Of a stretch of DNA of 64,000 nucleotides, positions 8,095 through 55,183 are shown piece after piece. Position numbers and translations under genes: made by a program. Under the pieces are notes generated by a model. That model was given only the letters and a program-made list of their open reading frames with translations, did not search any database and was not told the DNA's origin. The stretch covers positions 1 to 64,000 of IMG/VR virus record IMGVR_UViG_3300031857_000094, one strand, 5' to 3'. Position 1 is the stretch's first letter. Each line of letters begins with the position of its first letter. The stretch comes from a virus.

Positions 8095-8102
8095 TATTTA
8101 TT
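8095..8102 (-). promoter_or_regulatory. Late promoter box for gp13-gp17
   Basis: The minus strand reads AATAAATA (GAATAAATA in context), close to the T4 late box. It lies 28 bases before the gp13 ATG and runs to the last base of the cyclase gene. The same GAATAAATA string occurs before gp25 and before the 92-residue membrane protein, which supports it as this phage's own late-box variant. Confidence 0.65.
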
Positions 8103-10165
8103 CATTTTGATGTGGCGCGATATACTCCATCCCAGTTTTTGGGTATATCAGCGTTTCGTAGCTCCTCAATGCGCTCCTCCATCATTCCATAATATTCAGT
8201 GAGTTCGCCTTTAAACGCATTTCGCAACACTTTGATATACTGTAATGCGTTATCCCAGTTTTGATAGCGATACTGTTTAATGAAGTCTCTATGAGTTTTT
8301 AGATATGTGTGATCAACTCCTGTCCCATTGACAATCGTAAAGATACGGACTCCTTTCGATTTACCTTTTACAGCGATGCAGTCTAGCTCTGCTAGTGGAT
8401 ATGCTCCGTCAAGCAGTTCTGCTGTGCGCTCACCGATGATAATACGAACGTGATACGGTTTGCTCTGTCCCTCTAACCGCGAAGCCAAGTTGACAGAATC
8501 CCCCAAACAGGTATAATCAAATCTTTGACTGGAACCCATATTGCCAACGACAACATCACCAGAATTGATACCGAGACCCATACCAAAAGGAGGAACTCCT
8601 TCAGGCGCGATAGAAGCGTTAAAAGCATCGAGATCATCGAGCATTGCGAGACCCGTGCGAACTGCGTTTTTAGCGTGTTCGCGATCATCCAAAGGCGCGT
8701 TCCAGAAAGCCATCTGCGCATCGCCGATATACTTGTCGAGTGTTCCATTGTTTTCTAAAATCCTTGCAGTCATCGCTGTCATGTAGCGATTCATTATCTG
8801 AGTAAGACCTTGAACGTCAGATCCATAATGCTCACTAATAGAAGTGAAGCCGCGCACATCAGTAAACATAATTGAAAGTTCACGAGTTTCTCCTCCTAGG
8901 CGTAGTAGCTCAGGATTCTTCTGTAACTTTTCAACAAGAGCTGGTGAAAGATATGTACCAAACTGCTTTTTGATTTGCAGCTTCAATCTATTCTCGCGCG
9001 CGAAGTTGTTATATACTAAGTGACCAAAGCTGAAAGTGCCTGCCAACAATAAATAACTAGCATCCCACAGCTGCATGTGTTCTTTGAACATGTAGTAAGA
9101 ACCATATGCGGAGGATCCAACGAATGCTAGATATAATGGCACTGTCAATGAAACAGATGTTCTTGGTACAAGAAAGAGCAATAATCCTAGCATTACAGAC
9201 AGAACGAGCAATTCAAGAGTCTTCGCGAAAGGCAGTCGGGTTATACTTGATCCATCTATCAAAGTTTGCAATGCAGCAGCTTGAACTTCATGGCTCCACT
9301 TTTCACCCAACGGCGTGCCGATAATCCCACCAACGCCTTCAATCGTTAATCCTAAGACAACAATTTTTCCTTCGACTTTATCTTTTGTAGCTTCTGTTGC
9401 ATCGACGCGCTCGAAGTTATTGTTCCATGTTGTCCAGATGCGACCACGCTCGTCTGTGGAGATTGCGGGGAACTGCGGGATGCGGACTGCTTCGACACCT
9501 GCTTGACCTGTTTTGATTTGGTAAGATGGATCTCCAGCCACTGCTCGTAGGGTTTCCAATACAAGTGAAGGATACAGTGTATCCCCAATCCTAACCAGCA
9601 TAGGCAAGCGACGAACAACCCCATCACGCTCAGGTGTTGCAGCGAGAACCCCAACCCCTTCGGCAACGTCAGCGAAAGATCGTAGAGGAGATATAGCCCC
9701 AGGCCAAGAATAGACCCATGAATTAGGGTCATCACCGATACTAGCGAAGCCTCTGCGAACAGCATCTGGCGCTCTTCGCTGAGCTGTTGGTGTTTGCGAT
9801 ATAACGACACCACCAGCCGCAATAGATTTTGCCAAATCGGCATCGCCACCAGCGCGATCTTTTTCACTAAAAAGAATAGGAACGACGATAGCTGCAGCGC
9901 CAGCAGCACGAAGACGTTCAATAGTCGCAGCGATGTCTCGACGGTCGAATGGCCATTGACCGTATTCCTGAACTGACTTTTCGCCGAACTCAACCAGAAC
10001 AACTTCATCGGACTTCTTTTGCTCCAAAGATGTTATGAAGTAGTCAAAAGTTTTCAGTTGTAAAGTTTCAATGGGAGATGGATTCAATATGAACAGGATG
10101 ACAAGCATCAAAGCTGATGCGATAGCCGCCCACGTCGAAGTGAGATATTTGCCAAACGTTTCCAT
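8102..10165 (-). CDS. CHASE2-domain class III adenylate cyclase
   Basis: This 687-residue membrane protein is predicted to make cAMP from ATP. An N-terminal membrane helix (about 11-29) leads into a periplasmic CHASE2 sensor (about 35-305), then three membrane helices (about 315-335, 339-358, 366-386) and a cytoplasmic class III cyclase domain (about 425-610). The catalytic set looks complete: metal aspartates D436 (MFTDVRGFTS) and D482 (YIGDAQMAF), ATP-selecting K478 and D550 (FDYTCLGDS), and transition-state N559 and R563 (VNLASRLE). The tail after 615 is helical. Such proteins are normally bacterial chromosomal sensors, often beside FecR-like genes. Here it is the last gene of a phage block with a FecR-like protein and curli-type proteins, just before gp13. 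The substrate is inferred from these residues. Confidence 0.9.
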   Translation of the reverse strand: METFGKYLTSTWAAIASALMLVILFILNPSPIETLQLKTFDYFITSLEQKKSDEVVLVEFGEKSVQEYGQWPFDRRDIAATIERLRAAGAAAIVVPILFSEKDRAGGDADLAKSIAAGGVVISQTPTAQRRAPDAVRRGFASIGDDPNSWVYSWPGAISPLRSFADVAEGVGVLAATPERDGVVRRLPMLVRIGDTLYPSLVLETLRAVAGDPSYQIKTGQAGVEAVRIPQFPAISTDERGRIWTTWNNNFERVDATEATKDKVEGKIVVLGLTIEGVGGIIGTPLGEKWSHEVQAAALQTLIDGSSITRLPFAKTLELLVLSVMLGLLLFLVPRTSVSLTVPLYLAFVGSSAYGSYYMFKEHMQLWDASYLLLAGTFSFGHLVYNNFARENRLKLQIKKQFGTYLSPALVEKLQKNPELLRLGGETRELSIMFTDVRGFTSISEHYGSDVQGLTQIMNRYMTAMTARILENNGTLDKYIGDAQMAFWNAPLDDREHAKNAVRTGLAMLDDLDAFNASIAPEGVPPFGMGLGINSGDVVVGNMGSSQRFDYTCLGDSVNLASRLEGQSKPYHVRIIIGERTAELLDGAYPLAELDCIAVKGKSKGVRIFTIVNGTGVDHTYLKTHRDFIKQYRYQNWDNALQYIKVLRNAFKGELTEYYGMMEERIEELRNADIPKNWDGVYRATSK

Positions 10166-10167
10166 GA

Positions 10168-10431
10168 TCAGTATTGATTGACGATATAAGGAGAAGAAGG
10201 GCAGCTACTGTAACAAGAAACGCTAAGGCTGAAAGACTGTGGAGTATTTCCTGACTGCGTGACCGAGACGCTGATGCCGTCGCCCGCCAATTGTAAATTA
10301 GCAGAATGACCAACAGCAGACTGAGTGATAGTAACATTTTGTGTTGATCCTATAATATTGACTGTTGCGTTGTTAACCTGTTGTGCGTTAGCAGAAACGG
10401 TCAGTAACAATAGAGCTGCTAATACTTTCAT
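10168..10431 (-). CDS. Small curlin-repeat-like secreted protein
   Basis: This 87-residue protein has a signal peptide (MKVLAALLLLTVSANA, likely cut before QQ). It then has two or three short repeats of the curlin type, Asn-x-x-x-Ile-x-Gln-x-Gly: NVTITQSAVGHSANLQL and ISVSVTQSGNTPQSFSL. Curlin repeats form stacked beta-strands in amyloid fibre subunits such as CsgA and CsgB. The C-terminal tail has two cysteines (SCYSSCPSS), unusual for curlin. It lies two bases after the cyclase start and one base before the FecR-like gene end, within the csgF-csgG block. A nucleator-like minor subunit is possible; this is inference from repeats and context. Confidence 0.65.
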   Translation of the reverse strand: MKVLAALLLLTVSANAQQVNNATVNIIGSTQNVTITQSAVGHSANLQLAGDGISVSVTQSGNTPQSFSLSVSCYSSCPSSPYIVNQY

Positions 10432-10432
10432 A

Positions 10433-11539
10433 TCAGTTCCCCTGCTTGATGGTGATAGTCGTAGTTCCTGCGCTGTTTACCATCTGTGTAATCTCGACAC
10501 CATCTTGTGTTAGTTTCATAGTCATGCTTTGGCTAATCGGAACTGTAACCTGAGCATACGCATTGAAGGATTCGCGATACAAGGTAACGAAATCATCTTC
10601 AACAAAGTATTTGAGCCCCGTTGCTGCATTGTATTTAGGCAAAAGTGCGTTGAATTCTGCAAGCTCATTTGTCAACATCTGCGAGCTGGAAAGATCCAAA
10701 AGATTGATAAGGAAGTCGCTGTCAAGGAAGTTGCGATCTAGTTTGTTGTATTCGGTCAGATAGTTCTTATCTAGTTCGGTATACTTTAGCAAATCTTTAC
10801 CAAGCAAATCTTCGTCGAGATAGTTATAGCCTTTAGCTTCTGTATGAACTTCTACGGTTGCAGATTTTGGCGGAGTAACAATCAAAAGATTATTGATTTG
10901 ATCCAAACTCAAATTCATGATACTTGATCTAGGAGTATTCATGCTTGTTTGAACGTTGACCGTTTCAAATGGTTTAGTTAGAATAACAGTTCCCATATCC
11001 GTTGTTACGGAAATAGATCCAGTGATACAATCGCGTTCTATGTTTTTCCAACCAGTAGGGCAAGAAGGTAGAAGAATAATAGTAGAACGACCAATCTCAT
11101 CAACTGTCCCAGAAAAGTCGGTGCCACGAACTCCAATAGTAGCAGTCGGAGTTTCCACCATAACTTGTTGCGGGTCGCTCTTCGCGATCTGTCCTGAAGC
11201 ATATTTGATTGTCCCCAATGCCATCTTCATTCCGAGCTTGCCAGTTTTTTTACTGTCATCGTAAACGAAGTTGTCGATTACTAATCTAGAATGCTCAGTA
11301 ATTTGAACTCGTGTATCATCTCTGAACGTGATTCCAGCGCGACCATTCGCGGTTGTAATAGTATCCTGCATCTCAACACCAGTATCTTTGGCGCTGGGAA
11401 TCACGTTCGTATTGCGTTTTATTTCAGCTGGTCCTGTTAACTCTGTTACTTTTCCAATATCAGCATTACTGATGGTTGGACTTGATAGTAAGAGTATTGC
11501 CAGAGCCAGTGATTGTAGAAATGACCTTAGAGTCAACAC
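10433..11539 (-). CDS. FecR-domain periplasmic protein
   Basis: This 368-residue exported protein probably starts at a GTG (11539), since its signal peptide (LTLRSFLQSLALAILLLSS, cut near SNA) lies in the overlap with the curlin gene. The FecR domain spans about residues 55-145, with typical GRAGITFRDDTRVQITEHS and TPTATIGVRGTDFS. FecR domains sense or transmit envelope signals, and bacterial FecR-like proteins often neighbour CHASE2 cyclases. The C-terminal 200 residues are unassigned and rich in Leu, Asp and Asn. The first 74 bases overlap the 3' end of the curlin-like gene in another frame. AAGG lies a few bases before the GTG. It may be the periplasmic partner of the cyclase's CHASE2 domain; that is inference. 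Confidence 0.82.
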   Translation of the reverse strand: MLTLRSFLQSLALAILLLSSPTISNADIGKVTELTGPAEIKRNTNVIPSAKDTGVEMQDTITTANGRAGITFRDDTRVQITEHSRLVIDNFVYDDSKKTGKLGMKMALGTIKYASGQIAKSDPQQVMVETPTATIGVRGTDFSGTVDEIGRSTIILLPSCPTGWKNIERDCITGSISVTTDMGTVILTKPFETVNVQTSMNTPRSSIMNLSLDQINNLLIVTPPKSATVEVHTEAKGYNYLDEDLLGKDLLKYTELDKNYLTEYNKLDRNFLDSDFLINLLDLSSSQMLTNELAEFNALLPKYNAATGLKYFVEDDFVTLYRESFNAYAQVTVPISQSMTMKLTQDGVEITQMVNSAGTTTITIKQGN

Positions 11540-12143
11540 CGCCGCCTTGCTTGATATCTACTGTGTTTGTTGCACCTAAGATATTCACGTCAGCGTCGTG
11601 ACCGTTTGTGCCAGCAGCACCAGTCTGAATAATGTTAACATCGTTTCCACCACCGCCAGCGATAAGAACAGTGCTCTTAGCTCCAGCAACAGCAGTCGAA
11701 TCATTTTGAATGTTTACAGTATTGTTATCAGTATTGATTGTAACATTGGAAATCGTAAGACCATCAGCTGATTGAGTTACAGTGTTTCCATCACCAGTAA
11801 TCGTGTTATTGATTATAGAGCTTGTACAAGTTCCGCTTACACCGCAAGCGATGTTCACAGTATTATTATCACCTGTTACAAGCGAGTTCACTTGTACGTC
11901 ATCACCCTGCACATTAATTGCAGTGATGTTAGAGTTACCGATCTGGTCAATAGTTACAATATTGTTTTGACCGTTGATTATAGCCTTATCGGTAGGATTG
12001 CCAATCGCATTCGAATTGCCTGTTTGAGTCATAGAAATTGTAGAGCCACTACCGATTTGGTCTACATACACACTATTTCCCGCGGCGTTTGCATATTGAA
12101 ACATAACCAAGAATGACAACAGTGTCATACTTGAGAGTTTCAT
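11466..12143 (-). CDS. Curlin-repeat-like fibre protein
   Basis: This 225-residue exported protein has a signal peptide ending near YANAA, followed by many Asn-rich repeats of curlin type (VYVDQIGSGSTISMTQTG, NIVTIDQIGNSN, NNTVNI repeated). Spacing is close to 20-23 residues in the first part, as in CsgA/CsgB. The later repeats are looser, with DNNTVNI and GSGNTLTI units. One Cys pair occurs in the middle (ACGVSGTC). It lies six bases after csgG, and its 3' end overlaps the FecR-like gene. It is a likely substrate for the CsgG pore, so a phage-encoded extracellular amyloid-like fibre subunit is the leading reading. A solenoid receptor-binding protein would be the alternative. Confidence 0.78.
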   Translation of the reverse strand: MKLSSMTLLSFLVMFQYANAAGNSVYVDQIGSGSTISMTQTGNSNAIGNPTDKAIINGQNNIVTIDQIGNSNITAINVQGDDVQVNSLVTGDNNTVNIACGVSGTCTSSIINNTITGDGNTVTQSADGLTISNVTINTDNNTVNIQNDSTAVAGAKSTVLIAGGGGNDVNIIQTGAAGTNGHDADVNILGATNTVDIKQGGGVDSKVISTITGSGNTLTIKSNHQ

Positions 12144-12148
12144 TCCTT

Positions 12149-12952
12149 TTACCTCTTCTTGATACTCCAGAGCTTTTTCTTAGCTCCCTCCTTAATCATA
12201 TCAGCAACTGCTGCTTCAATAGCTATTCTTACAGCGTATGTCGTAGGTTCGTTCACAGAGTTACCAGCTTCAAACTCAACGGACTTAGTGCCCACATCAA
12301 TAAACTTGAATACGTTTGCGCCAGCGCCTGTGCTCAATACAGTTTTAGATGCTCCAGTCGATAATAGAACTTCACCAGTGTTGATAGAAATCAAACGTAG
12401 CACAACAGTCACTTCGTCTTTTCTATATTCCTGATTAGCGCCAACTCCTAAGAAGCGAGCACCAATACCACCAGTTCCGATATTACTATCATATCCGACA
12501 ACTCCGCCATCCAACATAATCCCAGCAACAGTCAATGGAGTTAGTGGCTTTGCTTGATCCTTTTCGTAAAGCTCGCGCTGACTGCGAATCAGCTGACGTT
12601 CCTTTACAAGATTATCAAGCGCACTACGCTCTACAACCTGAAACCATTTACCGCGACCAGCGTCTTGTAGTGCTTTGATTAGAAACACTTCTGAACCTTG
12701 TGTCACAGCAGAACTCAAACTAGCGAAGTTCGCTGCTGGCTTACGCTGTCCTGTTAGATCAGGAAAACGATATACAGCAATTGGAATGACTGGACCATCT
12801 ACTCCAGGCAAATTCACTAGCTCGTTGAACCGCTTCGTCGTAATAACTTCAGGAGCTTCCGCTCGGGCTTCAATAGATTCTTTTGTTACCGACTCAGCTG
12901 TGCAACCAGCCAACAGTATAGTAGCAAGAATCATACCAAATATCTTTACCAT
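12149..12952 (-). CDS. csgG: CsgG-type curli secretion lipoprotein
   Basis: This 267-residue lipoprotein (E. coli CsgG is 277) forms the nonameric outer-membrane pore of the type VIII (curli) secretion route. The lipobox is LLAGC with Cys16. Family segments are VPIAVYRFPDLTGQRKP, VVERSALDNLVKERQLIR, the strand GGVVGYDSNIGTGGIGARF and a closing GAKKKLWSIKKR. The constriction loop keeps the Asn-Phe pair (PAANF) but appears two residues shorter than in E. coli and lacks the Tyr that helps form the narrow ring there. It overlaps csgF by seven bases. No csgE-like gene is seen in the window. Confidence 0.92.
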   Translation of the reverse strand: MVKIFGMILATILLAGCTAESVTKESIEARAEAPEVITTKRFNELVNLPGVDGPVIPIAVYRFPDLTGQRKPAANFASLSSAVTQGSEVFLIKALQDAGRGKWFQVVERSALDNLVKERQLIRSQRELYEKDQAKPLTPLTVAGIMLDGGVVGYDSNIGTGGIGARFLGVGANQEYRKDEVTVVLRLISINTGEVLLSTGASKTVLSTGAGANVFKFIDVGTKSVEFEAGNSVNEPTTYAVRIAIEAAVADMIKEGAKKKLWSIKKR

Positions 12953-13386
12953 GCTAAACTCCCATAAGGAACAACAACTTCAGTGACGCTACCGCCAGCG
13001 TCTGTAATTCTTAATGTGATTTGTGATCCATCAGATGACCATTGAACATTGTTTGATGCGATATCAAACGATCCACTCGTATTACCATTATCAGAAAACA
13101 ATTGCTCCGCAATTTTTTGCGATAAAGTCGCGTACACGCGCGACTCTAAGTTGTTTAGAAACTTCGCAAGGTTAGTATTTTTTGCAGCCGCAGCTTCAGC
13201 AGCTGCTTGAGCTTTTTTATCTTCGGCAATTTTTTGACGGCGTGATGCTTCTAAGTTATCAATCGTCAAAACGTGAGCAGAGTAACCAATGCCGCTGAAC
13301 GATGGACTTTTATATTGAAATTGAATTTCACTTGCTAGCGTCTGGCTGCTTATCAGTAGCAGCGTTGTTGCCATTAGAATGCGCAT
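12946..13386 (-). CDS. csgF: CsgF-type curli assembly protein
   Basis: This 146-residue exported protein (E. coli CsgF is 138) has a signal peptide MRILMATTLLLISSQTLA. The mature N-terminus SEIQFQYKSPSFSGIGYSA matches the segment by which CsgF plugs into the CsgG channel. An Ala/Lys-rich helix follows (about residues 50-72), then a small beta-rich C-terminal domain (SQITLRITDAGGSVTEVVVP). In bacteria CsgF couples secretion through CsgG to nucleation of the curli fibre at the cell surface. It overlaps csgG by seven bases and the upstream membrane-protein gene by 59 bases. Confidence 0.88.
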   Translation of the reverse strand: MRILMATTLLLISSQTLASEIQFQYKSPSFSGIGYSAHVLTIDNLEASRRQKIAEDKKAQAAAEAAAAKNTNLAKFLNNLESRVYATLSQKIAEQLFSDNGNTSGSFDIASNNVQWSSDGSQITLRITDAGGSVTEVVVPYGSLAW

Positions 13387-13942: not shown

Positions 13943-13962
13943 CAGGAGTGCTATATAATAGT

Positions 13963-14937
13963 ATGCTTAGATCATTAGTTTTCTTCCTGACGCTGTCTGC
14001 GAGCGCGATGGCTCAGGAATTAAGAGTTATCACTCCTTCTCCTGCAGATAGTTACAATATCAACGCTAGAATCCTGGCTCCGTATATGGCAAAGTATCTG
14101 CTTGAGAAGCCAACTCCTGTAATTCAAGTGATGCCTGGAGCTTCGAGTTTGGTCGCTACGAATTACATGTACAACGTGGCTCCTAAAGACGGGAACACAA
14201 TCGCGACCGTTTATAAAAACATTCCGCTTGTAGGTATTCTCGGTGGCCCTACTGTTATGTTCGATCCAACGAAGTTCAATTGGATTGGCTCGACTGTTGA
14301 TGGTCGTAAAGATGCAGTCTTAGTATGGACACATCGCAAAGAATCACTCACAGAGTTTAAAACTAAGGAACTCATTGTCGGAACAGAAAGTATCGTTTCC
14401 GCAGACTCTACAAAGTTCATTCGAAACTCGCTCGGACTAAACTTCAAGCAGATCGCTGGTTACGCTAATCCAGGCGCTGCGCGACTAGCTCTTGAACGCA
14501 AAGAAGTCGATGCTGTTATTTTTAATTTGCTTGGGATCAAAACACAAACACAATGGACTGATCCAAATAGCGGCATCCGCGCATTGCTACAGTTTGGTAA
14601 CGGTAAGATTCGCCATCCAGATTTCAAAAACGTTCCAACATTCGCAGAGCTTATTACGAACGAAGATGATAAGGCTATTCTTGATATCTTCGAAACACAG
14701 TTTATCCTACTGAGACCATTCATCGCTCCACCTGGAGTTCCTGCTGCTAGAGTAAAAGAACTTCGCGAAGCGTTCAACAAAGCTGTCAACGATGTCGGAT
14801 ACATAGAAGAAGCGACTAAGGCTAGAATGGAAATACAGCTGATCACAGGTGAGCAGGCTGAGCATATTGTAGCTGTTTCATCGAATGCTTCTCAAGCAGT
14901 TTTAGATAAACTTAGAAACCTTCAGAGTGAAAAATGA
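13963..14937 (+). CDS. TctC/Bug-family periplasmic solute-binding protein (copy 1)
   Basis: This 324-residue exported protein has signal peptide MLRSLVFFLTLSASAMAQ. The mature part has the two-lobe TctC pattern: RVITPSPADSYNINAR early, IQVMPGASSLVATNYMYNV, GILGGPTVMFDPTKFNWIGS, and the late APPGVPAARVKELREAFNKA. These proteins feed tripartite tricarboxylate (TTT) transporters or act as periplasmic sensors. No TctA or TctB membrane component is encoded nearby, so it would have to use a host transporter or work alone. An in-frame GTG five codons earlier (13948) is less likely, since the signal peptide begins at this ATG. It overlaps the following oxygenase by four bases. Confidence 0.86.
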   Translation: MLRSLVFFLTLSASAMAQELRVITPSPADSYNINARILAPYMAKYLLEKPTPVIQVMPGASSLVATNYMYNVAPKDGNTIATVYKNIPLVGILGGPTVMFDPTKFNWIGSTVDGRKDAVLVWTHRKESLTEFKTKELIVGTESIVSADSTKFIRNSLGLNFKQIAGYANPGAARLALERKEVDAVIFNLLGIKTQTQWTDPNSGIRALLQFGNGKIRHPDFKNVPTFAELITNEDDKAILDIFETQFILLRPFIAPPGVPAARVKELREAFNKAVNDVGYIEEATKARMEIQLITGEQAEHIVAVSSNASQAVLDKLRNLQSEK

Positions 14938-15617
14938 TTGAACATGCACTATTCCCCACGCTAGTCTGTGAGTTTCACTATAATAAGAAGGATGAGTTCA
15001 AGCAGCTCTTCTATCAAAAGATCTTTGACTATATGACCCCAGAGGGATACTCAAACGAGTTCACTGGTCACGTCAATATCCATCACGAAGAATCGTTCGC
15101 TCCATTTTTCGCATACGCAATTAACTGTGCTAAACAGTATGCTGCACGTTTGCATATCGACACGAATAAGTTCGAGTTCAATCTAGTCAAGACGTGGATG
15201 AACATTAAGAAAGATGACTCGACGCCATATCACGCGCACGGGGATGCGCACATTTCGTTCACTTATTATGTGAACGTTCCATCAACGTTTGTTCGACCTA
15301 TTCGCTTTCATAATCATGAGCGCAGGCACGAACCATATCCTGGCTCTATCCGCTGGAATAACACAAGCGATACTTGGGATTGGTTGAACGCATACACTTG
15401 GCAGTTTGAACCAGTCGAGGGACAGCTGCTAGTATTCCCTTCGACGCTTCCTCATGATACTATTGGTCAGACAAATGGTGAAGATAAAGGTAATCCGACT
15501 GTAGAAGAGCTAAACGAAAATCGTATTTGTCTTGCAGCCGATATCCTTCTCACATACAAAGATAAGACCGCAAGTCCACTTGGTGTCCAACCAGTTAGCA
15601 ATTGGAGACAGTTTTGA
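14934..15617 (+). CDS. 2OG-Fe(II) oxygenase-like protein
   Basis: This 227-residue protein resembles the phage/marine 2-oxoglutarate Fe(II) oxygenase group that begins with a short ALFPTLVCEF strand. The iron site is readable as H102-x-D104 (YHAHGDAHISF) and H174 (FPSTLPHDT). A basic residue for 2-oxoglutarate binding should follow H174 but cannot be pinned down. Members hydroxylate amino acids, proteins or small molecules; the substrate here is unknown. It overlaps the TctC gene by four bases (ATGA) and the next oxygenase by four bases at its stop, so the three form one plus-strand operon. Confidence 0.75.
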   Translation: MIEHALFPTLVCEFHYNKKDEFKQLFYQKIFDYMTPEGYSNEFTGHVNIHHEESFAPFFAYAINCAKQYAARLHIDTNKFEFNLVKTWMNIKKDDSTPYHAHGDAHISFTYYVNVPSTFVRPIRFHNHERRHEPYPGSIRWNNTSDTWDWLNAYTWQFEPVEGQLLVFPSTLPHDTIGQTNGEDKGNPTVEELNENRICLAADILLTYKDKTASPLGVQPVSNWRQF

Positions 15618-16225
15618 GCTATACTACAATCTACAATAATCCTTGGCAGAGATCACAAATCACTTATCCATTCGTTACATGGGATAATGGATTTACAGAA
15701 GAAGAGCTTAATGCTATTATTGAATACTGCGACTCGAACGGGACTGAACTTGGTACTACGTTTGGCGCATCTTCAGAAGAAGAAATTAAAGCACATCGCG
15801 TATCAAACGTAAAGTTTCATGGCAGGAATGAGAACACAGCATGGATATTTGACAAGCTCAACTTTATCATTCAAGCATCAAACGAGCAGTTCTACAACTT
15901 CAACTTGAATGGATATTCTGAGTTTCAATATACAACATACGATCCTAATGGTCGTTATGATTGGCATACAGATATGTCATTCGGTGAAAAGTATGGTAAT
16001 GATGCAGAACCACGCAAACTATCAATGACGCTTTTATTGAATGATGGTTTTGAAGGCGGTGAGTTTCAGATCAACAATGGTAAGCAAGAAACACCAATCA
16101 CAGTAGATATGTTTAAAGGACGGGTTGTTTTGTTCCCGTCCTTTATGATTCATCGTGTGAAACCTGTGACTAAAGGTGTTCGTAAGTCGCTGGTTGTTTG
16201 GGTGCTTGGTCCTAAGTTCGTTTAA
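15614..16225 (+). CDS. PKHD/prolyl-4-hydroxylase-type 2OG-Fe(II) oxygenase
   Basis: This protein is 203 residues if started at TTG 15614, chosen because GGAGA lies at 15604-15608 with good spacing and the TTG overlaps the previous stop (TTTTGA); an in-frame TTG at 15602 would add four residues. The double-stranded beta-helix core is complete: H118-x-D120 in YDWHTDMSF, H180 in SFMIHRVKPV, and R190 ten residues later for 2-oxoglutarate. Related hydroxylases are common in T4-like aquatic phages, and their targets are mostly unknown. A perfect 10-bp inverted repeat lies inside the gene at 16115-16144. It converges with the minus-strand TctC gene, both stops sharing TTAA. Confidence 0.85.
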   Translation: MSYTTIYNNPWQRSQITYPFVTWDNGFTEEELNAIIEYCDSNGTELGTTFGASSEEEIKAHRVSNVKFHGRNENTAWIFDKLNFIIQASNEQFYNFNLNGYSEFQYTTYDPNGRYDWHTDMSFGEKYGNDAEPRKLSMTLLLNDGFEGGEFQINNGKQETPITVDMFKGRVVLFPSFMIHRVKPVTKGVRKSLVVWVLGPKFV

Positions 16226-17142
16226 TCTATATCGAACTCAATACCACGCTCAATAAACATTTTCTTTTCGTCAGCTACGAGTTTCTTAATAGCTCCATCG
16301 TTGATACACATAGGAACATACTTACGATCAGTAATCAGTTTCTTGATATCTGGATCAGCGCACACTCTATCAAAAAGGGATTGAATCTTAGTGATCAGCT
16401 CCTTTTCGCTTTTAAGAATAGCGAATGAAGTGTATGCTCCGAAGTTAAACTCAGGAAATCCAAGTTCTGCTCCTGTAGGTACGTTAGGATATTCTGACAG
16501 TCTTTCGGGGCTCGACATAGCAATAATTTTTAAAGATCCATTTTCAGCCACGTTAGCTGAAGCTGGATTGTTGATCATAAAATCAGCTTCCTTGACTATC
16601 AATGCACGAACACGATCAGGAACGTTCTTATAGTGAACGATCTTAACGTTGTTTCCTAGCTTATACTTGTCGAGGAAAATGTCAGTCAATACTGGTCCGC
16701 CACCACTTGAGTTGATTGAGCCAGCATAAAATCCGTTTCGCGCGCGCATCTGAGCTACGAACTCATCAATCGTATTAGCAGGATTATCTGGACCCACCAT
16801 GAACGCAGCATAGCTTACCATGTGCGACGTTAAGAAGTGAAACTGATCTACTCTGTTATCAGCATTCGTTTTAGGATTAGAAAAGAACGACTGATTACCA
16901 TACAGAATAACGTTGTTTCTTACGGCTAACACTCTCTGATAAGCAGACTCACCCGCAGAGCCAGGGATAGTCATGTATCTAAACTCATAGTCCGACTGAA
17001 TCTGATTCAGCTTGTTCAGAAACTGAACGGCTAACTGTCCAGAAACGTTTGAGTTTGAAATTCTAGAGATAACATCAATTTTTGTTTGTGCGTGTGCAAC
17101 GCTAGAAGCTAATAGTGCAATGATAAAGTAAATCAGTTTCAT
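16222..17142 (-). CDS. TctC/Bug-family periplasmic solute-binding protein (copy 2)
   Basis: This 306-residue exported protein has signal peptide MKLIYFIIALLASSVAHA and TctC-type features: YMTIPGSAGESAYQRV, the serine/glycine ligand loop GSINSSGGGPVLTDIFL, VHYKNVPDRVRALIVKEADF and SEYPNVPTGAELGFPEFN. It differs clearly from the plus-strand copy at 13963-14937, so it is not a recent duplication. It overlaps the upstream PP-loop gene by one base, and a link between its ligand and that enzyme is conceivable. No transporter membrane subunit is in the window. Confidence 0.86.
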   Translation of the reverse strand: MKLIYFIIALLASSVAHAQTKIDVISRISNSNVSGQLAVQFLNKLNQIQSDYEFRYMTIPGSAGESAYQRVLAVRNNVILYGNQSFFSNPKTNADNRVDQFHFLTSHMVSYAAFMVGPDNPANTIDEFVAQMRARNGFYAGSINSSGGGPVLTDIFLDKYKLGNNVKIVHYKNVPDRVRALIVKEADFMINNPASANVAENGSLKIIAMSSPERLSEYPNVPTGAELGFPEFNFGAYTSFAILKSEKELITKIQSLFDRVCADPDIKKLITDRKYVPMCINDGAIKKLVADEKKMFIERGIEFDID

Positions 17143-18341
17143 TAAAACGTTTTCCTCTTCAACGATCCTACAACGTAATGTTTAGTGACCCAATGTCTCT
17201 TCAGTAAGTTTTGGGCTTTGATGCTTTTGTATCTGTTCAAATAGTAGCTTTTCTTTTCATCAATCATTTCGTTGTAGTATCGTTTGTTTTCATTGTTTTC
17301 GATTTGATTGATAAGGAAAAGCTCTGGATTTTGTTTTGGTTTTGGTGCTATGAACTCAATGCTGTTAGTGTGATAGTATATCAGTTTGGCATAAAGTTTG
17401 TCCAAAACGTTAGGGAGTTCCTGATTGTATTCTGATAGTCCTCTATTAGATACGTTTTCCATAAACAACTTATAAACGTTAGGATGTCTGATAAGAATGT
17501 TTTTGATAACATGCGATTGCTTCACAGGTATCAATGGATAGTTAGGAGTCCAAAAAAAATCTTCCAGCGTGTATATATTGTTTACGTCCTCGCTGCGAAT
17601 ACGCCCAACACCATGCATCGGAATATCCGAAAAACGAAAAATGAGAGTATCGTTTTCAGTCGTAAACAACCACGGCTTTTCGAATCCACGAATGAATGCT
17701 ACTTTGTTTTTCTTAGGTGCATTGAGATTGTTGTACGTGTGCATGTAATAGTTGTAAATCCTTAACGGTTTGATAAGGCTCATTCCGTTAGTGGGATTAT
17801 GATTCATTCCCATATAATCAAACTTACGACCTACGATTTGATCATAGGCGTAGTCAGAAAGATCCATACTATTGATCTTAGTGTTTGGGCTTAACTCTTT
17901 GACGCGCTTTAGTTTTGGTAAAACAGCACCACGATACTCATAAAGAACACCTAGAGTATCATGCTTCTTCAAATAGTCATCGTCGAGTCGATTCAGTAGC
18001 GATTCATAATGCACCGTTTGAATCTCATCAATGAATATGCCGTTTTCCAGAAACGTTTCTAAAATCTCATTAGAATCGCTCCCTCCAGAAAACGCAAGGA
18101 TGAGATAGTCGTATTGATCACGAAGCTGTTTCGCTCTTTCTACATACATTTGCTTGAGTGGCATAGTTGGTTCAACTTTCCAATCTATGCCATCAAACAC
18201 TTCTTCGTTGTAATGAAAGATGTTTAGTTTAGGATCATAATCTTCATTCGCTAACATCAAATCTAAAAGAGTTTCGCGATCAGAAACATAATGTCCATTG
18301 TATAGATAATAGCCGCAGTGGCTTTGTTTCAAATCATACAT
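17142..18341 (-). CDS. PP-loop ATP pyrophosphatase-like protein 1
   Basis: This 399-residue protein has a PP-loop SGGSDS at residues 85-90 (YLILAFSGGSDSNEILETF). PP-loop enzymes adenylate a substrate with ATP, as in asparagine synthase, QueC, TilS and argininosuccinate synthase. It has no glutaminase domain with an N-terminal catalytic Cys. The region before the loop (DWKVEP, then LRDQYDY) is closely matched in the 346-residue protein at 18781-19821, so the two are tandem paralogues. The C-terminal 200 residues are unassigned. By eye the gene is more AT-rich than the structural genes. The substrate is unknown. Confidence 0.7.
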   Translation of the reverse strand: MYDLKQSHCGYYLYNGHYVSDRETLLDLMLANEDYDPKLNIFHYNEEVFDGIDWKVEPTMPLKQMYVERAKQLRDQYDYLILAFSGGSDSNEILETFLENGIFIDEIQTVHYESLLNRLDDDYLKKHDTLGVLYEYRGAVLPKLKRVKELSPNTKINSMDLSDYAYDQIVGRKFDYMGMNHNPTNGMSLIKPLRIYNYYMHTYNNLNAPKKNKVAFIRGFEKPWLFTTENDTLIFRFSDIPMHGVGRIRSEDVNNIYTLEDFFWTPNYPLIPVKQSHVIKNILIRHPNVYKLFMENVSNRGLSEYNQELPNVLDKLYAKLIYYHTNSIEFIAPKPKQNPELFLINQIENNENKRYYNEMIDEKKSYYLNRYKSIKAQNLLKRHWVTKHYVVGSLKRKTF

Positions 18342-18756
18342 TATTAACGGTTATCACCTCTTCTTGTCCGTTTTCGTCAATTAAAATCCACTGAGAGTTA
18401 TAGTTAGTTGGTTTTTGTTTTATAACCGAGTTAATGAATGTTTCTCTAACATTTTTGTTCGGTGTTGGAGAAGCATGAATGAAAGTGTTTGCCAAAATTC
18501 TATCGCTGAAATAATAGATTAGACGCAATTCGTTGTTACCAACGTATTCTCTATCCCACCCTTCATATCCAGGCGCATTTTTAATGTTTTCTCTAATGTT
18601 GTCTCTTATGAGAACAATTTCTGTATTGCTATACATCGTTTCCTGATCGCGTGGATCAGGTGTTGAGCTTATCGTTGAATTTATGTTTTTGATGTACACA
18701 CCAGACCAGTCTTGACTTGAAGTCTTAGTGAATTTTTTAATAGCTCTAACAGTCAT
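18334..18756 (-). CDS. Unknown 140-residue protein between two PP-loop genes
   Basis: I do not recognise this protein. It has no membrane segment, signal peptide or cysteine motif. A central stretch reads YEGWDREYVGNNELRLIYYF and the C-terminus WILIDENGQEEVITVNN, suggesting a small alpha/beta or beta-rich fold. It overlaps PP-loop gene 1 by eight bases and lies 24 bases after PP-loop gene 2, so the three are one unit. A late-type box at 18843-18850 could drive it. Confidence 0.6.
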   Translation of the reverse strand: MTVRAIKKFTKTSSQDWSGVYIKNINSTISSTPDPRDQETMYSNTEIVLIRDNIRENIKNAPGYEGWDREYVGNNELRLIYYFSDRILANTFIHASPTPNKNVRETFINSVIKQKPTNYNSQWILIDENGQEEVITVNNV

Positions 18757-18780
18757 CTAGGTTCCCTCTAAAATCAAAAC

Positions 18781-19821
18781 CTATTCTATGAAATGAGGTT
18801 TTGATCGAAACTTGTATTGTTGTTTAGTCGAAAATCCAAGTCTATTTATATACTTTAAACCGTCAATGAATATGTTATATATTTCTGAATTCTTATGTTC
18901 AAACATGAACATATCTCTTGCGCTAACAGAAGTAGAAATAGATTTGGGCGACATGAAAACCAAAGGATGTTTTAAATCATACAGCAGTTTGTTTAAGATT
19001 TCATTTTCAGTTTCGTCAGCATCACCGTAATTATTGATTCTTTTGTATGTGTTAACAACGTGTGCTTGTTTCCTTATGATGTTCGTTGCAGTAAAGTGAA
19101 CATCCGTATAGAAATTTACTCGTTGAAAATTTTCGTCGTGATACTTAGATCCATAATCAAAGAAAGAAAGATCTACGAAAAAAACGTTAGATTTATGACC
19201 TATCCGATAGTCAAGATTTACTTTGTCGGTACCCATGATATAACAGGTATCTTTAGAGTTTTGATGTCCGATAAACTTTTTAAGATCATGCCAAAATAAA
19301 GTGTGAACGCTCCTAAATCCGCCAATATGTTTAGTCCACTCACGGCCGTGATTAGAAAGAGCAGTGAAGTTAATCTTTGGGTCGTTAAACCATTTAGTAT
19401 AGTCGGCGACTGTGATTTTCGTGTTGGGTAAATTTAATCGACTAAGAGTAGGAAATACATTTTCATATAACTCTCCGTTATGATTTTCATCACTTCCCTT
19501 ATAGCTATCTCGAGCCAAAGCTCCAACCACAAGAATTTCATCGATATGAATGTTGTTATAGTAAAAAGTTTCTAAGATGTTTGTAGAGTCATGCCCACCA
19601 GAATAACAAAGAATAACATACTTGTATTTGTCCCTGATGTACTGCGCACGAATTTTGTAAAGAGTATCTAATGATTCATGTGGCTCTGTTTTCCAATCTA
19701 CCATACGCATTTCTTTATCATAAAAATAAAGATAACAGTTTTTACCAGAAAGAAGAGCATCTATTTGATTATTGTAAATATCGCCGTCTTCATCATAGTA
19801 GTAGATTGAATCAGTTATCAT
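18781..19821 (-). CDS. PP-loop ATP pyrophosphatase-like protein 2
   Basis: This 346-residue protein has the PP-loop SGGHDS at residues 74-79 (YVILCYSGGHDSTNILETF). The block DWKTEP, then Y-RA--IRDKY, then ILETF--NNIHIDEI parallels PP-loop protein 1, so they arose by duplication. The remainder has several aromatic-rich stretches and no second known domain. By eye it is one of the most AT-rich genes of the window, consistent with recent acquisition. It overlaps PP-loop gene 3 by 11 bases. Function unknown; an adenylating ligase or amidotransferase-like step is likely from the loop. Confidence 0.7.
   Translation of the reverse strand: MITDSIYYYDEDGDIYNNQIDALLSGKNCYLYFYDKEMRMVDWKTEPHESLDTLYKIRAQYIRDKYKYVILCYSGGHDSTNILETFYYNNIHIDEILVVGALARDSYKGSDENHNGELYENVFPTLSRLNLPNTKITVADYTKWFNDPKINFTALSNHGREWTKHIGGFRSVHTLFWHDLKKFIGHQNSKDTCYIMGTDKVNLDYRIGHKSNVFFVDLSFFDYGSKYHDENFQRVNFYTDVHFTATNIIRKQAHVVNTYKRINNYGDADETENEILNKLLYDLKHPLVFMSPKSISTSVSARDMFMFEHKNSEIYNIFIDGLKYINRLGFSTKQQYKFRSKPHFIE
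18843..18850 (-). promoter_or_regulatory. Possible internal late promoter box
   Basis: The minus strand reads TATAAATA exactly, inside the 3' part of PP-loop gene 2 and about 90 bases before the 140-residue gene. The region is AT-rich, so a chance match is more likely here than elsewhere. Confidence 0.35.
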
Positions 19822-20566
19822 CTATGAATTCAACTTTGTATTTGGTGTTAGGATATATCGTTCTCTTTGCTCTTATCGCAGCAAGAGCTTTTTTATATGG
19901 TAATCCATAATCATAGTTCAACTTAGGTCTAAATGGAACGTTGTATATTCGGTACTTGAAATCTTGATGATCGCCTCCATCATATTCTTTTTGCATGGCT
20001 TTAACAAGTTCTGGAGTCCACATGAAAAAGTATATACTGTTATCTTCATGAATCAGCACATCATTATAGAAATCCCACTCACTAACATCGTCGTATGCAT
20101 GCTCTCCAATAACAGCCACACCACCCATTTCTTCAGCGTATCTACCTGCCAATAAAGCCGATACAGAGTCTGAACCTATACCATTGAGTTTCATGAAGAT
20201 ATCATCGTAATAGATCTGAAGCATTTCAGCTTCGGTTTTTTGAATAACAACGGGTTTTAAACTATGTTTTTTGCAGTAGTGAAATGCGTAAGATGACTCT
20301 AGCTTGTTGCCTGGAGTATCAACGATAATTGGCGTAGGATATAGATGTTTCAGACAGTCAAACACAAACTCTGAATCCATACCTCCGCTGAGGGGAACAT
20401 ATAGTTTCTTACTGATCCATGAAAAATCTGTGATTGTGTCGAACAGAGCTTGTTCCCAGGTTAAAGTTTCAACTTCTTCAACATCATGCCAAACTTTCAA
20501 ATCTGCTGCTGGATTTGTGAGACGCTCTGCTATATTAGTTTTCAGCCAGTTGTTTTTCGTTGCCAT
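19811..20566 (-). CDS. PP-loop ATP pyrophosphatase-like protein 3 (asparagine-synthase-like core)
   Basis: This protein is 251 residues from ATG 20566; a TTG five codons upstream (20581) is possible but less likely. The PP-loop SGGMDS (SKKLYVPLSGGMDSEFVFD) matches the asparagine-synthase/QueC style more closely than the other two copies. Further motifs are PIIVDTPGNKLESSYAFHYC and GIGSDSVSALLAGRYAEE, the latter resembling the second substrate loop of such enzymes. It is not an obvious paralogue of copies 1 and 2 outside the loop. It overlaps the fatty-acid-hydroxylase gene by 32 bases. No glutaminase domain is present, so ammonia or another amine donor would be needed. Confidence 0.72.
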   Translation of the reverse strand: MATKNNWLKTNIAERLTNPAADLKVWHDVEEVETLTWEQALFDTITDFSWISKKLYVPLSGGMDSEFVFDCLKHLYPTPIIVDTPGNKLESSYAFHYCKKHSLKPVVIQKTEAEMLQIYYDDIFMKLNGIGSDSVSALLAGRYAEEMGGVAVIGEHAYDDVSEWDFYNDVLIHEDNSIYFFMWTPELVKAMQKEYDGGDHQDFKYRIYNVPFRPKLNYDYGLPYKKALAAIRAKRTIYPNTKYKVEFIDDN

Positions 20567-20996
20567 TTTTCTTAGTCCCAAAGACTAGATCCCAAATCGG
20601 AAAGAACACTCCGTAGTTTTTAGTAGGATCTTCATGATGCACCAAATGCCATCTACCACTAGTTAGTATTGGATACAGATTGACTTTGGGATTGTGTTCG
20701 ATTGCTTCTTGTATGAATGCAGCCCAAACATAGTAGAAACCAAACAGCCACCAATGGCCAGTTACAGCAGCTAAGACGAATGTAGGAATGACTTCGGTCA
20801 GCCACTGATCGACTGTGCTTTTCCAGTTGTCGAACCAGAGAAAAGCGTTTTTCCAGTTAAGGCCTTGAATGGTAGATTGGGTTACTTGCTTATGATGATC
20901 GTTGTGGAACTTGCGCATGAACGACCACACATGCGCAAGTCTGTGCATCCAGTAGATCATAAACGTCCATAGAAGAAATACTAATGCGTAGGTCAT
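20535..20996 (-). CDS. Fatty-acid hydroxylase / sterol-desaturase superfamily protein
   Basis: This 153-residue membrane protein has the di-iron histidine set: H18 and H22 (MHRLAH), H31, H34 and H35 (HNDHH), H101, and H117, H120 and H121 (HLVHHEDP). Hydrophobic helices lie at about 3-17 and 72-97. Family members hydroxylate or desaturate lipids and carotenoids at the membrane. It is shorter than typical bacterial members (about 200-300) but keeps all histidine clusters. It overlaps the PP-loop 3 gene and the upstream 134-residue gene (by four bases). Modification of host lipid or LPS acyl chains is a reasonable guess; the substrate is unknown. Confidence 0.84.
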   Translation of the reverse strand: MTYALVFLLWTFMIYWMHRLAHVWSFMRKFHNDHHKQVTQSTIQGLNWKNAFLWFDNWKSTVDQWLTEVIPTFVLAAVTGHWWLFGFYYVWAAFIQEAIEHNPKVNLYPILTSGRWHLVHHEDPTKNYGVFFPIWDLVFGTKKNGNEKQLAEN

Positions 20997-21397
20997 CTAT
21001 CATTAGCTGTAATCTTATCAATCATTTCTTGAATTTGTTCGTCAGTTAATGTGTCGAACTGAGTTTCTAGTTTACTCACATCAACAGTAAAAGACGTATT
21101 TTTCAGTTTGATAATATCAGACATAGATGTATCAATGTCTGGCGCTTGAACCTTTTCCAAAGTTTTCAACCACTCAATCGGTGCTTGTTTAATTATGAAA
21201 TCTTCTAATTCTTTTCCAATAGGAGCTGGAATAGGAAGTGTCAGAGAAACATCAGAACGACATCTTACTGGAGTTCCATCTTCGTTGCGATTAGAATCGC
21301 TAGCCAAAAACTCTTCGGAAAGAATATCTGTCCAGTATCTCGCTACAATCAAATGATCACTGGGCCATACTTCTACGATTTTATAATGTAAGTTCAT
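20993..21397 (-). CDS. Conserved-looking 134-residue protein next to the tail-fibre genes
   Basis: I recognise no domain. The protein begins MNLHYKIVEVWPSDHLIVAR, contains VSLTLPIPAPIGKELEDFI, and ends in acidic/amphipathic helices. It overlaps the collagen-like gene by four bases and the fatty-acid-hydroxylase gene by four bases. Its place directly after fibre genes suggests a fibre-associated or chaperone role, but nothing in the sequence proves that. Confidence 0.6.
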   Translation of the reverse strand: MNLHYKIVEVWPSDHLIVARYWTDILSEEFLASDSNRNEDGTPVRCRSDVSLTLPIPAPIGKELEDFIIKQAPIEWLKTLEKVQAPDIDTSMSDIIKLKNTSFTVDVSKLETQFDTLTDEQIQEMIDKITANDR

Positions 21398-22773
21398 GCT
21401 ATTGGTCCGTTTCTAGTTCCTGTTGCTATGTATCTAGTTATATTTGCATTGCCTGTTACAGCATTACCCTGAGAACCTGTAGGTCCAGTTGCACCTGCTG
21501 GAGCAAAACCAAAACCACCCGCTCCTGCTGGACCTGTAGGGCCCGTTGCACCAGCATTGCCTGGAGCACCCGCAGGACCAGTTGCTCCCAAGTTTCCTTG
21601 AGCACCAGTCGGTCCAGTAGCTCCAGCTGCACCACCTCCGCCACCAGCACCATTGTTGAAGTTATTGTTAAACGATCCAGCGCCACCAGCGGCGCCTAAG
21701 TTACCACCGACACCACCAGATCTTGGCGTCGCATTAGTAACGGTTCCGCCATTACCACCACCATTTGCTGATCCTGCACCAGCGTTTGCTGCTATAGTTC
21801 CAAAAGATGTTCCTCCAGCACCGCCAGGAACACCTGCGCCACCGCCACCACCAGCACCAGTATTCGCAATAACACCTTTACCGTCGGAGTATCCGCCGCC
21901 ACCACCGCCGCCGCCACCGCCGCCAGATCCGCCTGGACCACCAGGTCCGCCAGGTCCGCGAGCACCTCCTGGACCGCCAGGACCGCCAGGACCAGCTGCA
22001 CCGCCTGGACCACCAGGACCACCTGGTCCGCCTGTTCCACTTAAACCACCTGGGCCTCCTGCGCCACCAGGTCCGCCTGTTCCGCCAGTGAATGTACCGC
22101 CAGCATTATCTACAACTGTAATCAATCCAGTTACAGAGGGAACAGTGAAAGAAGACCCACCTGTTCCACCAGATCCACCAGCGTTGCCTGGTCCGCCAGC
22201 ATTAGCAGCATTGCCTGGTCCGCCAGCATTTCCTGGCGATCCGTTATTTCCCGTGCCGCCTGGTCCGCCTGTTCCACCATTATTTCCTGGTCCACCTGTT
22301 CCACCAGCGTTGCCTGGAGATCCACCTGCTCCAGGATTACCTGGAGCGCCGTTAGCTCCATTTCCACCACCACCACCAGCACCAGAGTTACCAGGAGTAC
22401 CAGTATTGCCTGGATTACCAGCTGCACCTGGATTACCTGTTGTTCCTGTGTTTCCAGCTGCACCAGCGTTTCCTGGTGTTCCTGGATTTCCGTTAGTTCC
22501 ATTATTACCAGGAGTTCCAGCGTTTCCTGTATTTCCGATTCGACCTGTAATCGTATTGTTATTGTCGACGTAAACGAGCGATCCACCTTTCCATCCAGAT
22601 CCTACGTCGAACGCTGGTGTTGCTGGAGAGTTAGAAGTTACACCAGCATTAATGAAGCATAGCAAGTTAAGCGGATAAGCTGGGCTTCCCGCTTGAGTAT
22701 AGAGATTGACGTTCGTAGCAGCATTGCTGATCGTAACGACTTTTGTTGGTCTTGCTAATAATGCTAGAAACAT
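21394..22773 (-). CDS. Glycine-rich, collagen-like tail fibre/adhesin protein
   Basis: This 459-residue protein has a non-repetitive N-terminal domain of about 78 residues (NVNLYTQAGSPAYPLNLL, ending VYVDNNNTITGRIG), found in phage tip proteins that continue into glycine-rich tracts. The rest is almost entirely Gly-X-X repeats: Gly-Asn-X units at about 80-200, then Gly-Gly-Pro-rich units with an 11-residue glycine run near the middle, and finally collagen-like Gly-Ala-Thr/Gly-Pro-Thr units. Either a collagen triple helix or a polyglycine-II sandwich, as in the S16-type gp38 adhesin, would fit. It overlaps the 134-residue gene and lies between tail structural genes and the accessory block, so a receptor-binding role is likely. 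Confidence 0.82.
   Translation of the reverse strand: MFLALLARPTKVVTISNAATNVNLYTQAGSPAYPLNLLCFINAGVTSNSPATPAFDVGSGWKGGSLVYVDNNNTITGRIGNTGNAGTPGNNGTNGNPGTPGNAGAAGNTGTTGNPGAAGNPGNTGTPGNSGAGGGGGNGANGAPGNPGAGGSPGNAGGTGGPGNNGGTGGPGGTGNNGSPGNAGGPGNAANAGGPGNAGGSGGTGGSSFTVPSVTGLITVVDNAGGTFTGGTGGPGGAGGPGGLSGTGGPGGPGGPGGAAGPGGPGGPGGARGPGGPGGPGGSGGGGGGGGGGGYSDGKGVIANTGAGGGGGAGVPGGAGGTSFGTIAANAGAGSANGGGNGGTVTNATPRSGGVGGNLGAAGGAGSFNNNFNNGAGGGGGAAGATGPTGAQGNLGATGPAGAPGNAGATGPTGPAGAGGFGFAPAGATGPTGSQGNAVTGNANITRYIATGTRNGPIA
21430..22540 (-). repeat. Imperfect 9-base Gly-X-X coding repeats
   Basis: Within the collagen-like gene the DNA consists of degenerate 9-base units built on GGN-NNN-NNN and variants, with frequent GGTCCTGGTGGT-like strings on the minus strand. 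Units drift from Asn-rich to Pro-rich to Thr-rich blocks, which suggests expansion by slippage or recombination. The opposite strand gives a long proline-rich shadow frame that is not a gene. Confidence 0.85.
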
Positions 22774-54174: not shown

Positions 54175-54357
54175 TTAACCTTTCGGAACACAAGCCAGTT
54201 TGTATTGATCCCACATTCCACGACCGTATTTCTTTTCTTCGATGAACTTCAGCGCATACATGCAGGATTCGTATGTATTGAACTCTTGGAACTTTACATT
54301 CTGACCGTTGCCAGCATTGCCAGAAAAGTATGTGATGACTATGAGAACGTAGATCAT
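54175..54357 (-). CDS. Small exported or membrane-anchored protein (60 residues)
   Basis: The first 15 residues (MIYVLIVITYFSGNAG) are hydrophobic and suit a signal or anchor sequence. The remainder (FNTYESCMYALKFIEEK, two Cys) is a compact helical domain like small periplasmic proteins common in phages. It overlaps kdsA by four bases and is followed by the cupin gene. Function unknown. Confidence 0.65.
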   Translation of the reverse strand: MIYVLIVITYFSGNAGNGQNVKFQEFNTYESCMYALKFIEEKKYGRGMWDQYKLACVPKG

Positions 54358-55181
54358 CGCCTTAAACTCCGTTTGGAGATATAATCCAATTCTATTAAAT
54401 CATATAGTAGTTGCTCGAAATTGTCAAGACGAACCATGTTCGGACCATCGCTTGGAGCGGATTCTGGATTCTGATGAACTTCAATGAACAGAGCAGCCAC
54501 GCCAACAGCTACAGCAGCGCGGGCCATCGTAGGCACGAACTGACGTTGTCCGCCAGAGCTTGTGCCATTACCACCAGGAAGCTGAACTGCGTGAGTGCAA
54601 TCCATGATGACACGGTCAGTATATTGCTTCATCACTTCTAGCGAACGCATATCGACCACAAGATTATTGTAGCCAAACGTTGTTCCGCGTTCAGTGAACA
54701 GATACTTATCACAGCCAAACGTTCTTAGCTTCTCAGCTACGTTTGCCATTTCCCACGGAGATAGGAACTGACCCTTCTTCACGTTGACTGGCTTACCACT
54801 CAGTGCAGCAGCTTGAATCAGGTCAGTCTGTCGGCAAAGGAACGCAGGAATCTGAATGATATCAGCTTGAACTGCTTCGCATTGCCAAGGTTCGTGAACG
54901 TCCGTGAGAACCTCGATTCCTCGAGCACGGACGGCCTCCATTCCGTAAAACGCCTCGTCGAAGCCGCCACCTCTACTACTATTCGCGGAACTTCGATTTG
55001 CTTTATCGAAAGAGGTCTTATAAATGAAGTTGATTTCTGTATCGAATCTATTACCAACGCTGAAGCAGATATCACGCAGTGCAGTAGCCATTTCCACTGC
55101 GTGATCCTTAGTTTCAAAAGCACAAGGTCCAGCGATAATGCTCAGGGGTTTATCATTCCCGCAGTTGTCATAGAAGCTCAT
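54354..55181 (-). CDS. kdsA: 3-deoxy-8-phosphooctulonate (KDO-8-P) synthase
   Basis: This protein is 275 residues from ATG 55181 (E. coli KdsA is 284). It condenses phosphoenolpyruvate with arabinose-5-phosphate to make KDO-8-P, the precursor of the LPS inner core. Signature segments are KTSFDKANRSS, TDVHEPWQ, IQIPAFLCRQTDL, NVKKGQFLSPWEM and FGYNNLVVDMRSLE. The Cys in IIAGPCAFE marks the metal-dependent class II (E. coli has Asn here); the other ligands are the HAVQ His, the FIEVH Glu and the SDGPN Asp. It lies in an early operon with the cupin-DUF1289 gene. A host-derived auxiliary gene affecting LPS is the likely reading. Confidence 0.93.
   Translation of the reverse strand: MSFYDNCGNDKPLSIIAGPCAFETKDHAVEMATALRDICFSVGNRFDTEINFIYKTSFDKANRSSANSSRGGGFDEAFYGMEAVRARGIEVLTDVHEPWQCEAVQADIIQIPAFLCRQTDLIQAAALSGKPVNVKKGQFLSPWEMANVAEKLRTFGCDKYLFTERGTTFGYNNLVVDMRSLEVMKQYTDRVIMDCTHAVQLPGGNGTSSGGQRQFVPTMARAAVAVGVAALFIEVHQNPESAPSDGPNMVRLDNFEQLLYDLIELDYISKRSLRR
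54399..54427 (-). promoter_or_regulatory. Sigma70-like promoter inside kdsA
   Basis: The minus strand has TTGACA at 54427-54422, 17 bases, then TATGAT at 54404-54399, within the 3' end of kdsA. It would transcribe the 60-residue gene, cupin-DUF1289, gp33, the nucleotidyltransferase-like gene and gp59. Confidence 0.72.
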
Positions 55182-55183
55182 GA

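Follow-up and report, generated by a model that had tools for sequence, protein, structure and literature searches.

The presence of three PP-loop ATPase genes in a row in a phage genome raises the question of what chemistry they perform and on which substrate. The window analysed here (64 kb) comes from a viral record of 82.6 kb; its terminase and tail sheath place the phage, an uncultured, marine-type virus of bacteria, among T4-like viruses, near cyanophages, pelagiphages and methylophages, at about 47–57% protein identity. The trio occupies the minus strand at 17142–20566, and, as the initial annotation had claimed, each of its three ORFs carries an intact SGGxDS loop. In order of transcription these are the AsnB synthetase-domain-like protein C (20566–19811; 251 aa from the ATG, with an alternative TTG start at 20581; loop PLSGGMDSEF), the AsnB-like ligase A (19821–18781; 346 aa; loop CYSGGHDSTN) and the AsnB-like ligase B (18341–17142; 399 aa; loop AFSGGSDSNE). 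The small gene that the initial annotation had seen between two paralogues is present: c14 (18756–18334; 140 aa) sits between A and B, is unrelated to PP-loop proteins, is a homologue of c15 in other phages and often immediately precedes B.

The trio forms part of a longer coupled run on the minus strand. It begins with a collagen-like, Gly-rich tail protein (21394–22773; PF01391 match), which overlaps c2 (20993–21397; 134 aa) by 4 nt, and continues with a 153-aa fatty-acid hydroxylase superfamily protein (20535–20996; PF04116), a membrane di-iron hydroxylase that adjoins C. After C, A, c14 and B comes a TctC-type periplasmic solute-binding protein (16222–17142) with a signal-peptide-like N terminus. 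Overlaps of 4 to 32 nt were found between successive genes from the collagen-like gene to A, c14 starts 24 nt past A, B and c14 share 8 nt, and the final base of B is also the first of the TctC gene. A convergent flank on the plus strand encodes a 2OG-Fe(II) oxygenase related to PiuC and prolyl 4-hydroxylase (15602–16225; PF13640), a second 2OG-Fe(II) oxygenase (14934–15617; PF13759) and a second TctC-type binding protein (13948–14937). The whole cassette lies between the baseplate/tail-fibre and neck genes of the T4-like genome. The T4-type late promoter TATAAATA has five matches, all on the minus strand, against 2.6 expected by chance, a count that gives a hint of late expression; sigma-70-like sites and terminators showed no excess over shuffles. 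Elsewhere, the window holds a radical SAM/SPASM protein (56432–57799), a similar-looking protein being seen by eye beside the cassette in another contig (L070, 7996–9273), and a complete-looking curli cluster at 8102–13386 (CHASE2-adenylate cyclase, FecR protein, curlin-repeat protein, CsgG and CsgF), an arrangement already published for pelagiphages (PMC9599517).

Are the three proteins recent copies of one another? The initial annotation had described a block of about 60 residues common to two of them. The homology of A and B stands, and its extent is far greater: the BLASTP alignment runs over 329 columns with 28% identity (E 3e-19), and that between profiles over 295 columns (E 1.2e-54). 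C is linked to both at the profile level (E 7e-7 with A, 1.6e-6 with B). On these alignments, A and B are full-length old paralogues and C is a shorter relative. When 173 relatives were placed in a tree, sequences labelled A, B and C fell almost cleanly apart, with 3 changes against a minimum of 2, B not being strictly a single clade and some long branches being unsure; the duplications are therefore old. A recent tandem duplication was considered and is ruled out by the tree. Across roughly 50 to 70 sequences per family, the SGGxDS loop varies little or not at all, and dN/dS of A, B and C against near relatives is 0.03–0.12. Because the loop is conserved across relatives and selection is this strong, the three are real genes rather than chance ORFs. 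Purifying selection extends over all genes tested (dN/dS 0.007–0.15).

Assignment to a family could not be made from single sequences. No family model of Pfam, PHROGs or NCBIfam reached its cut-off with A, B or C, searches of the PDB with B and C found no family, and PF00733 (Asn_synthase) did not match the three proteins of the window at E up to 1. Weak PF00733 matches were obtained for 14 of 29 relatives of C (best E 1.2e-4), and the C profile retrieved TtuA, NH3-dependent NAD synthetases, GMP synthase and carbapenam synthetase (CarA) from the PDB; hhalign with E. coli AsnB as the sole target added little (probability 5% for the C profile and 0.3% for that of A). AlphaFold models built from alignments of relatives had high confidence for A (pLDDT 93.6) and C (pLDDT 95.5). 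Structure comparison (VIA), which the initial annotation had proposed, placed AsnB first for A (Z 11.6, rmsd 6.1, 284 aligned residues) and human ASNS and E. coli AsnB first for C (Z 13.3, rmsd 3.8, 237 aligned residues). For both models the next group is the beta-lactam and carbapenam synthetases (Z 9–12.5), and matches across the superfamily comprise AsnB, NadE, LarE and GuaA. In a viral library, the closest structural neighbours are uncharacterised proteins of uncultured Caudovirales (best TM 0.90). A, B and C belong to the N-type PP-loop ATP pyrophosphatase superfamily, A and C by their models and loop, B through its homology to A over 295 columns. The three are mutually related and no known family claims them; they do not split into separate, already described phage families, each with its own substrate.

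AsnB-type enzymes convert a carboxylate to an acyl-adenylate, which then reacts with ammonia or an amine. Among the chemistries raised in the initial annotation, amide formation has the best structural fit, AsnB/ASNS being followed by the beta-lactam and carbapenam synthetases. Judging from the models, amide formation rather than other adenylate chemistry is likely; the likeness of the modelled fold to AsnB is nevertheless insufficient as proof of the reaction. An invariant lysine is present in each family (C K204, A K251, B K274), a candidate at most for the catalytic lysine that the beta-lactam and carbapenam synthetases have in the synthetase site beside a Tyr-Glu pair. The initial annotation was also right that no glutaminase domain is present: no Pfam model for this N-terminal, Cys-nucleophile domain matches A, B or C, and with about 55–84 residues ahead of the loop the proteins are too short to have room for it. 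The alignment of the A model starts at AsnB residue 73, and from this aligned range alone A may keep a remnant of a former N-terminal (glutaminase) domain.

PP-loop enzymes also modify nucleic acids, and the initial annotation had listed base or tRNA modification among its possibilities. A QueC-, TilS-, TtuA- or DndC-like role in base, tRNA or backbone modification would agree with weak matches to QueC-like and PAPS-reductase PHROGs, with matches of the A model to TilS, NcsA and LarE at Z 7–8 (TilS, 1ni5, Z 7.7 across 165 residues), and with the QueD-like neighbours, noted by eye, of some distant relatives of C. All of these matches of A stay under Z 8, clearly below that to AsnB. The cysteines of A and B also tell against such a role. 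B has no conserved cysteine and A none above 0.86, let alone an invariant one, so that thiolation in A and B is disfavoured; C has one near-invariant cysteine (C98 of P0004), and by the same count the zinc-binding four-cysteine set of QueC is absent from A, B and C. The likeness to DndC and PAPS reductase extends over a 37-residue stretch of A at the loop (E 0.0023), with no full-length match, and PF01507 found no match in the viral record. The cassette contains no nucleic-acid-modification partner and is located in a tail/host-recognition operon. A role in nucleic-acid modification is thus disfavoured and is held to be highly improbable. The distant C relatives beside QueD/6-pyruvoyl-tetrahydropterin synthase-like genes (L097, L100 and L102) may have a different function.

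The cassette is not confined to this phage. Query P0003 retrieved 38 viral loci and the C profile 70; after removal of copies 76 loci were mapped, or 65 once near-duplicates were dropped. A search for the same cluster in other phages, which the initial annotation had suggested, thus showed it to recur in uncultured viral contigs, about 65 of them when counted without redundancy. In 50,697 phage records tblastn detected none of A, B, C, the hydroxylase, TctC and c2, and no cultured phage with the cassette was found there. Two scans of GTDB contigs (about 85,000 prokaryote species) gave pattern matches and zero confirmed relatives, a conserved peptide pattern being required such that distant cellular relatives could escape. 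A recent acquisition by the phage is not supported: the groups A, B and C are old, all their members came from viral contigs, and no cellular relative was confirmed.

With rearrangements, the recurring order is tail fibre, collagen-like protein, c2, A, hydroxylase, C, a 2OG-like protein or amidoligase, c14 or c15, B and TctC, followed on the opposite strand by two 2OG oxygenases and a TctC. The window differs in that the hydroxylase and C lie ahead of A. In variant cassettes a Rieske protein replaces the membrane hydroxylase, and B12-type radical SAM, ATP-grasp, Amidoligase_2 and TctA proteins occur, as do two further PP-loop families, one with QueC-like cysteines. One PP-loop family, Q (L032, 8679–9539; L008, 6091–7011; L023, L028 and L036), has four invariant cysteines and adjoins TctC in six of seven cases. 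Amidoligase_2 (PF12224) is inserted after C in L025 (10184–10984), L029, L031, L028, L036 and L058. Compared with L044 over 16222–20996, the hydroxylase, B and TctC are 99%, 98% and 96% identical, as against 86% for A, 82% for C and 73% for c14; such uneven identity suggests separate recombination of different parts of the cassette. Gene content that is mosaic and variable among phages would also suit a defence or counter-defence module. PADLOC gave only short weak matches, to DndC for A and to QatC for Q, and neither a nuclease nor a sensor partner accompanies the genes; such a module is extremely unlikely.

Within the recurring cassettes, the neighbours are specific. C adjoins the hydroxylase in 33 of 61 cases (shuffled mean 5.0, maximum of 1000 shuffles 13), B adjoins TctC in 33 of 46 (7.3 and 16) and A adjoins c2 in 25 of 46 (4.3 and 11), where the null is gene order shuffled inside each locus and the counts reflect conservation rather than independent events, since related phages inherit gene order by descent. 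The median gap is −1 nt, and c2 lies mostly directly ahead of A or the hydroxylase. The association with a fatty-acid hydroxylase and a TctC protein, first noticed in this phage alone, is therefore conserved in many others, far beyond shuffled order. Since the His motifs of the hydroxylase (43 relatives) and the HxD...H...R residues of the 2OG oxygenases are kept in nearly all relatives, these partner enzymes look active, as far as conserved residues can tell. Members of the PF04116-type superfamily are membrane bound and their known substrates are mostly lipids. The nearest PDB structures of TctC are terephthalate-binding proteins and BugD, an aspartate-type carboxylate binder.

The pairing of B with TctC, and of family Q with TctC, could indicate a small-molecule pathway. 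A carboxylic acid taken up by TctC, with a host or phage TctA, might be converted to an amide or lactam-type nutrient, metabolic effector or inhibitor. TctA is indeed present at 3 of 76 loci, TctC is closest to terephthalate-binding proteins and BugD among PDB structures, and beta-lactam biosynthesis pairs AsnB-like synthetases with 2OG oxygenases. The transporter membrane subunit is, however, missing from most cassettes, the gene set matches no known pathway, and the position in the tail region is left unaccounted for. A small-molecule product is rather unlikely.

Alternatively, the cassette could modify the phage's own tail protein, with the 2OG oxygenases hydroxylating the collagen-like product of 21394–22773 and A, B and C amidating or cross-linking it. 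Its gene heads the coupled run and is joined to c2 by the 4-nt overlap, in 24 of the 35 cases that allow the test a tail-fibre or collagen-like gene is no more than six genes away on the upstream side of A, and one flanking oxygenase resembles prolyl 4-hydroxylase. The B12-type radical SAM proteins and amidoligase of variant cassettes would also agree, and the joint action of AsnB-like enzymes and iron oxygenases on peptides has precedent (PMC13060819). Tail fibres are expected in this region regardless, however, which makes adjacency weakly informative, and modification of a cytoplasmic tail protein would not be expected to involve a membrane fatty-acid hydroxylase, a Rieske oxygenase or an exported TctC. 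Modification of the tail is unlikely on balance; it and the small-molecule product are nonetheless serious rivals of the reading favoured here.

That reading, amidation of the host envelope, is favoured because a lipid-type hydroxylase lies beside C, an exported TctC lies beside B and the cassette occupies a host-recognition position. From the fold, motif, gene set, coupling and selection we infer, tentatively, that A, B and C are phage-lineage AsnB-type ligases acting with the iron hydroxylases in a single pathway directed at the host envelope. Each would adenylate a carboxylate, converting ATP to AMP and PPi, and pass it to ammonia or an amine to give an amide. Lacking a glutaminase, the three would require free ammonia, an amine substrate or another donor as nitrogen source. 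Hydroxylation would be carried out by the membrane di-iron hydroxylase beside C (a Rieske protein in other phages) and by the 2OG oxygenases at the flank, and the exported TctC beside B would bind a carboxylate in the periplasm. The pathway is likely to be expressed late. An envelope carboxylate (lipid, LPS or peptidoglycan), or a precursor of one, is a possible target, falling somewhat short of probable. The altered surface of the infected cell might exclude other phages or prevent released virions from re-adsorbing. The same phage encodes KdsA (Kdo-8-phosphate synthase; 54354–55193, strong matches to solved structures), an LPS-sugar enzyme, and in Lactobacillus casei the AsnB-type enzyme AsnH acts on the cell wall, asnH mutants being phage resistant (PMC3885529); both are compatible with envelope amidation. 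There are two counterpoints. Beside the cassette in this window neither a glycosyltransferase nor a gene known from lipid synthesis was recognised, and the collagen-like protein at the head of the coupled run also fits modification of the virion.

The terms used retrieved no published work on phage TctC, AsnB or PP-loop cassettes. Enzymes of this kind are known; what appears to lack a description in the libraries and papers searched is the families themselves, their missing glutaminase, their triplication and their operon. Three related enzyme families are defined here, found in this analysis only in uncultured phages, and the conserved operon that they share has a clear biochemical signature. 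If envelope or tail is indeed modified, phage surface chemistry would extend past glycosyl- and acetyltransferases, and the pairings of C with the hydroxylase and B with TctC lead to testable hypotheses on substrate and order of steps. A wider, doubtful extension is a virus-specific system in which AsnB-like ligases, interchangeable iron hydroxylases and carboxylate binders decorate a surface molecule or tail with hydroxylated amides, diversified between phages much as a combinatorial code would be, so that receptors are masked or recognised.

Among known systems, asparagine synthetase B/ASNS (PF00733) shares the SGGxDS loop and synthetase-domain fold and is the top structural match of the A and C models. 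These enzymes have about 550 aa with an N-terminal glutaminase, in contrast to 251–399 aa without it in the phage proteins, which further differ in number, as one operon holds three paralogues along with hydroxylases and TctC. The beta-lactam and carbapenam synthetases (CarA), the second-best structural group, are AsnB-like, have 2OG oxygenases as natural partners and keep a full, inactive glutaminase-like domain; genes of carbapenem or clavulanate pathways were not recognised at the phage cassette. In ribosomal-peptide systems (PesC nitrile synthetase, TsrC and lasso cyclases), an AsnB-like enzyme follows an iron oxygenase on a peptide (PMC13060819), and the nitrile synthetase ArtA (9lei) is among the structural matches of C (Z 9.1), although no precursor peptide was identified at the phage cassette. 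The envelope amidotransferases AsnH and LtsA, compared by description, are likewise AsnB-type and envelope acting, but are glutamine dependent and come from Gram-positive hosts, whereas the phage proteins have no glutaminase domain. A word search of the paper on the host recognition cluster of pelagimyophages and cyanomyophages (PMC7029224) gave no asparagine, tricarboxylate, oxygenase or amidotransferase. The cluster itself occupies the same position in T4-like genomes and combines tail fibres with surface-related enzymes, in pelagimyophages including surface-modifying glycosyltransferases (PMC7029224).
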